NCBI GenBank assembly: GCA_030590165.1
Contig: JAUUZA010000025.1
Span: 1-9,845, forward strand
DNA: 9,845 nucleotides
Source: Candidatus Altarchaeota archaeon
GTDB taxonomy: Archaea; SpSt-1190
Direction: 5' to 3'
Both the position numbers and the translations under genes were made by a program. Below the pieces are notes generated by a model. That model was not told where the DNA came from, did no database searches, and saw only the letters and a program-made list of their open reading frames with translations. Below are positions 166 to 5,613 of this stretch, piece by piece; the stretch's first letter is position 1; each line of letters begins with the position of its first letter.

Positions 166-594
166 ATGAAAGGTATAAGTCCGGTTATCGCTACAGTTTT
201 GCTTTTGCTCATGGCAGTAGCTGCTGTAGGTGGAAGTTGGGTATGGTACCAAAGACAGAGTGCAATTGTTGGTGGACAAACAGAAGAGAATATTAATGAA
301 CAGCTAGCACAGCAAGCGGCAACTTCAATTTCTCTTGCTGGTGTTTACTTAGGAGACACAGGTAATCTTACTTTAATAGTGAATAATGCGGGAAGTACTG
401 CAACTACTATTGATGGGTTTAAGATAACTGAAGGGAGTACGGCGTCGGCTAATCTATCGATTTCTGAGTCAGTTGCCGCACAATCTTCAGGTTTGATTAC
501 AACATTAGTTTCCTGTACAAGTGCAAGCACAATAAAAATTCAATTATTTGCGTCTGGTGTCAGTACCCAAGATTATGTTGAGACATGTCCTTAA
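166..594 (+). CDS. Archaeal type IV pilin-like protein
   Basis: A 142-residue surface filament subunit candidate. The N-terminus MKGISPVIATVLLLLMAVAA is the classic archaeal type IV pilin leader: a very short basic MKG, then ISPVIATV and a hydrophobic helix (about residues 4-23) that both anchors the precursor and packs the filament core. Cleavage by an archaeal prepilin peptidase is expected after G3 (family knowledge). The remainder (about 40-142) is rich in Ser, Thr, Ala and Asn with alternating hydrophobics (NLTLIVNNAG, TIKIQLFAS), consistent with a beta-rich head domain exposed outside the cell. C117 and C141 are the only cysteines and could form a disulfide. NLT (67-69) and NLS (96-98) are possible N-glycosylation sequons. 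It follows the end of a likely paralogue. Its last 35 bp overlap the end of gatD on the other strand. Whether it serves adhesion, secretion or another filament cannot be told. Confidence 0.88.
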   Translation: MKGISPVIATVLLLLMAVAAVGGSWVWYQRQSAIVGGQTEENINEQLAQQAATSISLAGVYLGDTGNLTLIVNNAGSTATTIDGFKITEGSTASANLSISESVAAQSSGLITTLVSCTSASTIKIQLFASGVSTQDYVETCP

Positions 595-3205: not shown

Positions 3206-3290
3206 CCCCTTAATCCTTTGATTAGGGGGCTCGTCCCGACCCACCCCCAGAGGGCCCAAAAGTGGCCCTCTACCCTTCTTTTCTTTTTGT
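3206..3290 (+). terminator. GC-rich double hairpin and T-rich tract after ftsZ
   Basis: Five bases after the ftsZ stop comes a first stem (3206-3215 with 3220-3228, 9 pairs and one bulged T, loop CTTT). A second, perfect 8-bp stem follows: AGAGGGCC (3249-3256) with GGCCCTCT (3264-3271) and a 7-nt loop. Then comes the T-rich tract TTCTTTTCTTTTTG (3277-3290). I count 41 G/C in the 66 bases 3206-3271, far above the surrounding AT-rich DNA. The simplest reading is transcription termination or 3'-end protection for ftsZ. An embedded small structured RNA cannot be excluded, because GC-rich islands in AT-rich archaea are often RNA genes. Confidence 0.75.
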
Positions 3291-3328: not shown

Positions 3329-3337
3329 TTTAAATTT
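3329..3337 (+). promoter_or_regulatory. TATA-like box of the first LRR gene
   Basis: TTTAAATTT is centred at 3333, 28 nt before ATG 3361, consistent with a nearly leaderless transcript. It is only 13 nt from the alternative in-frame GTG at 3346, which would then lie outside the mRNA. This spacing decides the start. Confidence 0.55.
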
Positions 3338-3360
3338 AATAATGGGTGTGTTTATTTTTT

Positions 3361-4257
3361 ATGCCAGTTGAAGAAAAGATTAAGGATTTTGCTCTACGAG
3401 TTTTAGGCGGAAACATTCCTGAAAAAGTTAAAACATTTAAGTGGTATTTTAGTTCTTATAAACAATTACCGAGTGATTTTGTTTCAACTTATAAAAATTT
3501 AGAAACTTTGATTATTAAAACTCATGATAAAAAAAATAATGAATTTGAAGAATTACCGTCTAATTTAGGGGAATTAAGTGAGTTGGAGGAAATTCATATT
3601 GAAAACACTAAATTGAAAAAAATTCCAAATTTAAGTGGGCTAACAAATTTGAAAAGGCTTTATCTTTCAGATAATTATATTGAAGAAATCCCAGAAAGTA
3701 TTGGTGACTTAAAAAAATTAAATATAGTTACATTAATGTATAATAATTTACAAACCATACCAGAATCAATTAAAGATATTGGTACGGAAGCTTCCTGGCC
3801 GTCAATGAAAATTCTTAAGTTGGGAAATAATAATATTAGATATATTAGTCCTGAAACTGTTAAACATTTATTTGATGAAAAAGGTTCTAGAATATTTTGG
3901 GACCTCTATGCGAATGATTTTTTATATCTTGGAAATGGAGAACTTATTCTTAATGAGAGTATGATATTGGATAGTTTTGCTGAAAAAATAATTCCAATTA
4001 GAGAATATGGTGAAAAAAAAGCGGTCAAAAAAACATTAAAGTTTTTGTATGAAAATCTCACTGAAGATAAGCTAAATGAAATTTATTCACATTTTGATTT
4101 TAATGATTTAATTCAATTTGGGAAAGACAGAACTAAACAGAATTTAAAAGGAATAATTGATGCAGGATATTCTTTTGTTGCAGACCTTTTTGTAAAAATA
4201 TACCCAAATGAAACTAGAAAAATTGAAAAACCAGAAGATTCAAAGCTTTGGTATTAG
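3361..4257 (+). CDS. Leucine-rich-repeat protein with uncharacterised C-terminal domain (copy 1)
   Basis: A 298-residue protein of unknown function. Residues about 36-163 form roughly five leucine-rich repeats of the bacterial/Shoc2-like type, with repeating units such as LKRLYLSDNYIEEIPESIGD (98-117). These build a curved solenoid normally used for protein binding. An N-terminal 35 residues precede the repeats. A C-terminal region (about 180-283) contains FDFNDLIQFGKDR (245-257) and IDAGYSFVADL, and is shared with the next gene. I see no signal peptide or membrane segment, so it is probably cytoplasmic. The ATG at 3361 is preferred over the in-frame GTG at 3346 because of the TATA-like box. 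Codons are very A/T-rich, more so than in ftsZ. It could be a regulatory adaptor; no catalytic motif is visible. A T-rich stretch after the stop separates it from its paralogue. Confidence 0.85.
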   Translation: MPVEEKIKDFALRVLGGNIPEKVKTFKWYFSSYKQLPSDFVSTYKNLETLIIKTHDKKNNEFEELPSNLGELSELEEIHIENTKLKKIPNLSGLTNLKRLYLSDNYIEEIPESIGDLKKLNIVTLMYNNLQTIPESIKDIGTEASWPSMKILKLGNNNIRYISPETVKHLFDEKGSRIFWDLYANDFLYLGNGELILNESMILDSFAEKIIPIREYGEKKAVKKTLKFLYENLTEDKLNEIYSHFDFNDLIQFGKDRTKQNLKGIIDAGYSFVADLFVKIYPNETRKIEKPEDSKLWY

Positions 4258-4274
4258 AAATTAAGATAGACATA

Positions 4275-4297
4275 ATTTTCCTTCATTTTGGTTTTAG
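4275..4297 (+). terminator. T-rich tract after the first LRR gene
   Basis: Between the two LRR genes the plus strand holds three TTTT groups (within 4275-4295) and no hairpin. Together with a separate TATA-like box before the second gene, this suggests the two paralogues can be transcribed independently. Weak on its own, because the region is AT-rich throughout. Confidence 0.35.
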
Positions 4298-4308
4298 ATA
4301 ACAAGAAA

Positions 4309-4316
4309 TTTTTAAG
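4309..4316 (+). promoter_or_regulatory. TATA-like box of the second LRR gene
   Basis: TTTTTAAG preceded by purine-rich AAGAAA (a possible BRE) is centred about 25 nt before ATG 4337. The arrangement repeats the leaderless layout of neighbouring genes. Confidence 0.5.
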
Positions 4317-4336
4317 TAAGAGAAGGTTAGTCTTTT

Positions 4337-5203
4337 ATGGGAGTTAATAATTATAGAGTAAAGGATGCTGCAATGAAAAGTCTTGAGTGGGAAAATCCTG
4401 AGGAAGTTAAATCAATTTTTTGGCCTAATCCTTCAGATGAATACTTGCCTATTGATTTTGTTGAAACTTTTCCAAATTTAGAAAAATTAATAATTATTGA
4501 TTCAAAACTTAAGGAGTTACCAAGAGATTTTTCAAAGCTTTTAAAATTAAAATATTTAAAAATTGAAAATACTCAATTAGTTACTGTTCCTGAAGATTTC
4601 GGAAATTTGAAAAATTTAGAAACAATTTATCTTAATAATAATTGTCTTAAACAAATTCCTGAAAGTATGGGAGACTTAAGAAATGTTCGATATTTATTTT
4701 TAAATAATAATGAGATTTCAGAGCTTCCGCCTTCGTTGAAGAAAATTAGTGAAAATGTTGGAAACGGATTTATTTGTATTGATGACAATAATTTGAGTTA
4801 TATTGACCCAATTCTTTCAACGAGTGAAAAGGGAAAAGCAAATTTATTATTTCCTTACGATTCAAATGCTTTTTTAATAATAGACTCTTGTAAGGTTGTA
4901 GTAAATGGGACGCAAATACATTATAGTCCGGGAAGTAGTGGAAAAATAATTAAAATTGAAGATAAGAAAGAAGTGTACAATCTTGTTTTGAAAAATTTAA
5001 GTAAGCATAGATTAACCACTGAAAAAATTAATGACGCTTATCGCGTTTTTGATTTTTCTGATTTAATTTCATTTGCAAAAAATAGGTCAAGTGAGTTTCT
5101 GAATCCCTTGATTGAAGCTGGTTGTAATGATGTTGCAAATTATCTTAATTCGTTTTATCAAAATATGAAAGATAAAAAATTCAAAGAGAATATTAATGAG
5201 TAA
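4337..5203 (+). CDS. Leucine-rich-repeat protein with uncharacterised C-terminal domain (copy 2)
   Basis: A 288-residue paralogue of the gene just upstream, also of unknown function. Leucine-rich repeats span about 37-154, for example LETIYLNNNCLKQIPESMGD (94-113) followed by VRYLFLNNNEISELPPSLKK. The middle region shares a beta-like stretch with copy 1 (NAFLIIDSCKVVVN here, NDFLYLGNGELILN there). The C-terminal domain (about 210-276) contains FDFSDLISFAKNR (238-250) and IEAGCNDVANYL. Over the 39 residues from FDF onward I count 17 identities to copy 1 without gaps, so the domain is conserved although the proteins have diverged substantially. No signal peptide, membrane helix or catalytic motif is visible. 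The stop lies 14 nt before the ATG of the RNase HI gene, so co-transcription is likely. The pair looks like an old tandem duplication. Confidence 0.85.
   Translation: MGVNNYRVKDAAMKSLEWENPEEVKSIFWPNPSDEYLPIDFVETFPNLEKLIIIDSKLKELPRDFSKLLKLKYLKIENTQLVTVPEDFGNLKNLETIYLNNNCLKQIPESMGDLRNVRYLFLNNNEISELPPSLKKISENVGNGFICIDDNNLSYIDPILSTSEKGKANLLFPYDSNAFLIIDSCKVVVNGTQIHYSPGSSGKIIKIEDKKEVYNLVLKNLSKHRLTTEKINDAYRVFDFSDLISFAKNRSSEFLNPLIEAGCNDVANYLNSFYQNMKDKKFKENINE
5189..5197 (+). promoter_or_regulatory. Possible TATA-like box of the RNase HI gene
   Basis: AATATTAAT is centred 25 nt before ATG 5218 and lies inside the last codons of the second LRR gene, preceded by purine-rich AAAGAG. If used, RNase HI has its own leaderless transcript in addition to read-through from the LRR gene. 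The bases also encode protein, so the match may be chance. Confidence 0.35.
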
Positions 5204-5217
5204 AAGATTTGAGTTTA

Positions 5218-5613
5218 ATGAAACTTTTTACGGATGGTGCTGCTCGAGGTAATCCTGGTGAAGCTGGTGGGGGGATAGTTTTAATTGATAGTGAGCGCAC
5301 GATTGAACACTTCAAATATTTTGGAAAAAAAACAAATAATCAATCTGAATATCTTGCTTTAATTGAAGGGTTGAAGCTTGCAGTTGAACAAGGCGCTAAA
5401 GAACTCAATATTTTTATGGACAGCCAATTGATTGTTAGGCAAGTTAGGGGAGAATACAAAGTTAAGAATTCAAATATGCGACCGCTTCATGCGGATGTAA
5501 TGGGTTTTCTAGAAAGAATTCCTTCTTGGACAATTACTCATATTAAACGAGAAGACAATAAACGTGCGGATTGGTTGAGCAATCAGGCAATAGACATGAA
5601 AAAAATAAAGTAA
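5218..5613 (+). CDS. rnhA: Ribonuclease HI
   Basis: A 131-residue enzyme that cuts the RNA strand of RNA-DNA hybrids, used in R-loop and primer removal. The fold begins with MKLFTDGAARGNPG, the signature of the RNase HI family. The four acidic catalytic residues are visible: D6 in TDGA, E44 in NQSEY, D68 in FMDSQL and D118 in KRADWLSN. Two-metal-ion catalysis follows from the family. The length is that of a single catalytic domain, without the N-terminal hybrid-binding domain of eukaryotic RNase H1. It resembles the compact archaeal/Bacillus-type proteins more than E. coli RnhA. The ATG at 5218 puts the first beta strand right at the start; an in-frame TTG at 5209 would add three residues and is less likely. 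It follows the LRR pair by 14 nt and converges on the TrmB-type gene. Confidence 0.93.
   Translation: MKLFTDGAARGNPGEAGGGIVLIDSERTIEHFKYFGKKTNNQSEYLALIEGLKLAVEQGAKELNIFMDSQLIVRQVRGEYKVKNSNMRPLHADVMGFLERIPSWTITHIKREDNKRADWLSNQAIDMKKIK

Follow-up and report, generated by a model that had tools for sequence, protein, structure and literature searches.

Two adjacent genes in the window (the whole stretch of 9,845 nucleotides analysed here, from a Candidatus Altarchaeota archaeon) encode leucine-rich-repeat (LRR) proteins that are homologous to each other over their whole length (34% identity, 96/283, E 7e-38 by BLASTP). The balance tips slightly towards reading them as members of a small lineage-specific family of soluble cytosolic LRR adaptors, which carry an orphan helical tail and are encoded at three or more loci of an archaeon with a small genome. 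The observations behind this reading are the homology of the copies, a Shoc2-type solenoid, the relatedness of the beta-plus-helical C-terminal parts of all three copies (with a weaker resemblance in the third), the AT-richness of the genes, and the corresponding sites in relatives, which are empty.

The most likely role of the pair, judged by our analyses taken together, is that of a cytosolic protein-binding adaptor, as the proteins have no membrane segment and match no enzyme family and no defence model. The curve of the LRR solenoid would bind a protein partner, as LRR proteins generally do, while the helical appendage may serve as a second contact surface (for dimerisation or for docking of another protein) rather than as an enzyme. 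The genes may have been acquired or born, and then locally duplicated, in this lineage instead of being inherited with the housekeeping cluster around them. The first-pass annotation had proposed a binding module whose partner is recognised by the repeats and whose output lies in the shared C-terminal domain; of its supports, the Shoc2-like repeats and the C-terminal region without a family stood, and the selective conservation of the tail and its recurrence with LRRs in archaea did not.

Gene layout and conservation between the copies

LRR protein 1 (3361..4257, +) has 298 amino acids from an ATG start and consists of a head helix (residues 7-15), LRR strands within residues 25-180, and a C-terminal part (residues 181-298). 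LRR protein 2 (4337..5203, +), recognised by its open reading frame, its Pfam LRR matches, and its homology to protein 1, has 288 amino acids. The shared plan that had been read from the DNA letters is borne out, as both open reading frames run from a short head through LRRs into a C-terminal part in which strands precede helices. Both solenoids score above the Pfam LRR cut-offs: that of protein 1 (residues 24-177; 3430..3891, +) reaches 58.2 bits for LRR_8 and that of protein 2 (residues 24-168; 4406..4840, +) 45.2 bits for LRR_14 and 45.0 bits for LRR_8 (cut-off 27). The earlier count of about five repeats was roughly right, each protein having six to seven Shoc2-type strands and the model of protein 1 having seven within residues 25-180. 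No export signal or membrane segment was found in either protein, the maximum 19-residue hydropathy being about 1.1, which agrees with the first reading, and Pfam and NCBIfam profiles revealed no enzyme family in the two.

A TATA-like element TTTAAATTT (3329..3337, +) lies about 27 bases 5' of the ATG at 3361 and, read by eye and without statistics, is a candidate leaderless-type archaeal promoter; it makes this ATG preferable to the GTG at 3346 as the start of protein 1. A second TATA-like AT-rich element (4308..4316, +), likewise picked by eye without statistics, precedes the ATG at 4337 by about 27 bases. Between FtsZ and the pair, 3' of the former, stands a terminator-like hairpin (3249..3271, +) of 8 pairs, 6 of them G-C, which is weak taken alone, with 3 terminator-like sites observed versus 1.3 expected. 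The RNase H frame (5209-5613) has an ATG at 5218, 14 bases past the stop of protein 2, close enough that RNase H may, in this genome alone, be transcribed along with the LRR pair. No Rfam families were found within the window.

The C-terminal parts are related in their own right: that of protein 2 (4841..5200, +) matches that of protein 1 (3901..4254, +) with E 2e-13, and the observed score of 130 compares with a maximum of 61 in 1000 shuffles. Within them, the FDFNDLIQFGKDR...IIDAGYSFVADLF block of protein 1 (residues 245-283; 4093..4209, +) pairs with the FDFSDLISFAKNR...LIEAGCNDVANYL block of protein 2 (residues 238-276; 5048..5164, +), and the earlier count from FDF on, 17 identical residues over 39 positions without gaps, is exact (43.6%). 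The claim that the C-terminal domain is constrained while the rest has diverged fails region by region: identity amounts to 42/100 in residues 36-140 (the LRRs), 5/35 in residues 141-180, 7/35 in residues 181-215, 9/29 in residues 216-244, 17/39 in the FDF block, and 35/115 (30%) in the whole C-terminal part (181-298), which rules out selective conservation of this domain. The repeats are kept as well as the FDF block, and the divergence sits in the last repeat and the beta stretch (residues 141-215), where identity is lowest.

When LRR positions were sorted into classes, 8/29 concave, 25/86 convex and loop, and 15/28 core positions were identical between the copies. Partner divergence, sought in the concave positions, gave no signal; these are not less conserved than the convex and loop positions, so there is no positive sign of the copies diverging towards different partners. 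Such partners belong to a reading that we hold to be rather unlikely, in which the tail is a new small helical domain, born or imported in this lineage, that would make a switch for oligomerisation or recruitment out of a generic LRR recogniser, each of the three diverging copies being specialised for a different partner. The dN/dS of the pair (0.68/1.07) is too near saturation for use. Whether the tail is an internal hairpin repeat was considered and rejected, hairpins a and b within one protein being unlike (shuffle fractions 0.88 and 0.46).

The C-terminal part and the search for its relatives

AlphaFold2 was run on the three family members. For protein 1 it gave a pLDDT of 80.5 and a pTM of 0.77, a pLDDT reached by the best of five models only, with the other four near 60, so that the arrangement of the tail is a prediction of moderate trust. 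The model comprises the head helix (7-15), seven LRR strands (25-28 to 177-180) forming a curved solenoid with pLDDT mostly about 90, four short strands (188-212), and five helices (213-280); the C-terminal part, predicted together with the LRRs, has a pLDDT of 66-90 per block to residue 290. In the PDB, the solenoid superposes on SHOC2, LRRC8, RSU1, and Leptospira LRR proteins with Z 15-17, and nearly all matches end by residue 211. A fold search of BFVD with the whole model of protein 1 listed LRR proteins, mostly from giant viruses.

The C-terminal region could also be an extended LRR cap, in which strands 188-212 close the edge of the sheet, the helices seal off the hydrophobic core, and the region as a whole has no separate function; this is a tentative alternative, though a serious one. 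The strands of the model directly continue the last LRR strand (177-180), the PDB LRR matches extend to about residue 210 and one of them, Ras suppressor-1 (Z 16.0, rmsd 4.5, 200 aligned), as far as residue 257, and the conservation of the tail is not above that of the LRRs. Against a cap speak its size, as about 70 residues in five helices far exceed the usual LRR cap, the absence of any match to the known families to which usual caps belong, and the prediction of the tail of protein 1 alone, which shows the same order of strands and helices at low confidence (pLDDT 57.7). The first reading had named the standard capping unit of the solenoid as what would undo its proposal; the strands may indeed extend the solenoid at its edge, but the helical stretch behind them, with five helices, exceeds a usual unit of this kind in length. 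Fold searches of the PDB and by Foldseek with this low-confidence isolated tail gave a best Z of 3.0 to a CARD and E 4.9 or worse, and since the query model is poor, the missing fold match is not evidence of a new fold.

No described family was found for the tail, as had been expected from the first-pass annotation: Pfam, NCBIfam, PHROGs, and PADLOC profiles gave nothing above cut-off, and PDB sequences no credible match. The expected recurrence of the tail with LRRs in archaea was not seen: apart from the window pair, its profile returned from 394 archaeal genomes nothing but weak hits that resemble chance. LRR regions themselves occur in 20 of these 394 genomes (this genome included) by a three-member profile, and outside this genome none of its matches extends beyond model position 182. 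The weak tail-profile matches that were read comprise two adhesin-like proteins, a short membrane-type open reading frame, and one transglutaminase, all of which look like chance; further weak matches in the 394 genomes lie at E 0.005-0.01. No match to the tail was found in 19 genomes of another archaeal phylum or in phage and plasmid records. A scan of the genome collection with the FDF block brought no relative, and a DNA pattern for FDFxDLIxFxK hit 41 stretches, none with an LRR-bearing frame; both needed a near-exact motif, and distant bacterial relatives could escape them. Two motif scans of viral contigs were likewise empty, and in the literature on archaeal or DPANN LRR proteins nothing was found on this family. 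A candidate shared tail in the archaeal LRR protein L015 was rejected (shuffle fractions 0.70 and 0.21, no similarity).

In the 10 genomes of the phylum, the tail profile has one match outside this genome (E 0.0045), to the same transglutaminase as above, a transglutaminase-core protein that is matched in the region of its Cys motif. This is what brought up a degenerate enzyme domain, for instance the front of a transglutaminase-like fold, as an identity for the tail, which is extremely unlikely. The E value is what chance would give across the genomes searched, and similar-scoring matches are unrelated adhesins; Cys is absent from the tail of copy 1, and in both copies too few residues follow the helix to form the His and Asp strands, which nearly refutes the idea. 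The catalytic set of Cys, His, and Asp that marks the transglutaminase-like superfamily is thus missing from the tail.

Judged from these sequence comparisons, what is known here appears to be an LRR fold of an ordinary kind, and what is new a tail found so far in this one genome only. Should the tail be a domain in its own right, the LRR toolbox would count a further orphan partner, and streamlined archaea of less than 1 Mb would still gain and duplicate cytosolic binding scaffolds beside core genes.

Genomic setting and the third copy

The LRR pair is surrounded in the window by FtsZ, RNase H, and tRNA-modification genes. In three relatives (G005, G002, and G001) the FtsZ-RNase H junction is intact, with 190, 98, and 78 bases between the two genes, and it is at this junction that the pair sits here. 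LRR_8 was found in one of the seven genomes of the family, namely this one, where the six others are 72-90% complete and the absence of LRRs could therefore include missed genes. Gain in this lineage would be the simplest reading of the synteny, with loss in several relatives also possible, and the pair looks recently gained or fast-evolving. FtsZ occurs in all ten genomes of the phylum, nine of which have at least two FtsZ-family matches and G004 one. Elsewhere in the window (166-591), a short pilin-like protein beginning MKGISPVIATVLLLLMAVAAVGGSW is encoded, and one to two such genes stand at the same place beside GatD in relatives.

A third LRR paralogue of 218 amino acids lies in the same genome on contig C41 (C41:2-658; E 3.7e-4), the contig beginning inside its open reading frame. 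Its tail comes next after the pair in this genome by the tail profile (domain E 0.016) and has NAFLxxD, IIKI..(D)KK..Y, and LxxExLNExY in common with it. Its hairpin a resembles those of proteins 1 and 2 (shuffle fractions 0.0003 and 0.003) and its hairpin b does not match those of the pair (0.07 and 0.92); as the hairpin segments were picked by eye, these fractions flatter the resemblance somewhat. From the third copy, the beta part and the first hairpin gain support as the common element, and the last hairpin less so.

On contig C8 of G001, one row holds genes that are split here over contigs C19, C41, and C24 (the window contig), so that these three should follow one another in the chromosome; in agreement with this, a Xaa-Pro-peptidase-like frame seen by eye is split between C24 and C41 at the ends that face each other. 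If they adjoin as the synteny suggests, this implies that the third LRR gene is about 13 kb plus the inter-contig gap away from the pair and is placed between a tRNA-binding protein gene and the open reading frame at C41:660, which lies beside ribosomal protein S9 in G001 and by eye is an RNA polymerase subunit N-like protein. No LRR gene was found at this site in G001. The end of C19 has an LRR-like frame with an in-frame TAA (G000:C19:13887-14268, L131), which, going by the synteny, could represent the beginning of the third gene on C41, or else an independent broken copy or a mistake in the assembly. Farther along C41 (L070, 7039-7972), two adjacent minus-strand open reading frames of 145 and 148 amino acids with a GC content of about 30-31% have no counterpart in the comparison with G001.

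The GC contents of LRR protein 1, LRR protein 2, and the third copy are 26.5, 27.1, and 24.6%, i.e. percentiles 3.0, 5.1, and 1.0 among the 591 open reading frames of at least 150 amino acids in this genome. At GC3 the three genes are less extreme (percentiles 10, 16, and 11), and their low GC may come in part from a composition rich in Asn, Lys, Ile, and Leu. Two AT-rich insertion sites within about 13 kb would also suit a mobile or selfish module that brought cargo or defence genes in next to housekeeping ones. We consider this unlikely, given that no PADLOC model matched, phage and plasmid records hold no match to the tail, and no integrase-like gene is present among the window genes.

Comparison with known leucine-rich-repeat proteins

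In a further reading the pair would be LRR effectors, exported or injected by an episymbiotic archaeon for contact with a host or competitor cell, which the small size of the genome (about 0.72 Mb) would fit. Matches of the LRRs to XopAE and XopAC point the same way but fall far under the cut-offs (45 bits versus 600 and 450), and across XopAE, XopAC, XopL, and SlrP the pair scores at most 53 bits versus curated cut-offs of 450-1113, so that it is not a member of these families. The similarity is limited to generic repeats, the proteins lack a signal or membrane segment, and their neighbours are the housekeeping genes named above, not secretion genes, all of which makes an effector role very unlikely.

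LRR proteins of the same repeat class as the pair occur in 19 of 393 other archaeal genomes (e.g., G331, G314, and G101), but all matches stop by model position 182, and the best short example, L015, has an unlike tail. Among solved structures, the best match to the solenoid is found in the Leptospira proteins LIC11098, LIC10831, and LIC12759 (4u08: Z 17.2, rmsd 3.0, 174 aligned; 280.6 bits); here the match stops near residue 210 and the tail is not shared. Ras suppressor-1 (RSU1) resembles the pair as a short cytosolic LRR adaptor, and among the solved matches listed its structure 7lt9 is the one whose range reaches furthest into the tail (model 3-257), although the rmsd is high and there is no sequence match to the tail. 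RSU1 binds PINCH LIM domains, which to our knowledge archaea do not have.

SHOC2 is likewise cytosolic and has the same 23-residue repeat class (L..L.L..N.L..[IL]P.S[IM]G.L), its solenoid superposes on that of the pair, and the profile matches reach 218-220 bits. It differs in that only the generic repeats match and in its size, with about 20 repeats compared with just six to seven strands in the pair, which is not a SHOC2 orthologue, and it is not known to carry a helical C-terminal domain of this type; we know of no archaeal counterparts of the SHOC2 partners MRAS and PP1C. Pfam LRR scores above the cut-off together with the curved solenoid fold place the two proteins in the leucine-rich-repeat superfamily and, as things stand, they chiefly illustrate a taxon-restricted gene family that makes use of a very common repeat.
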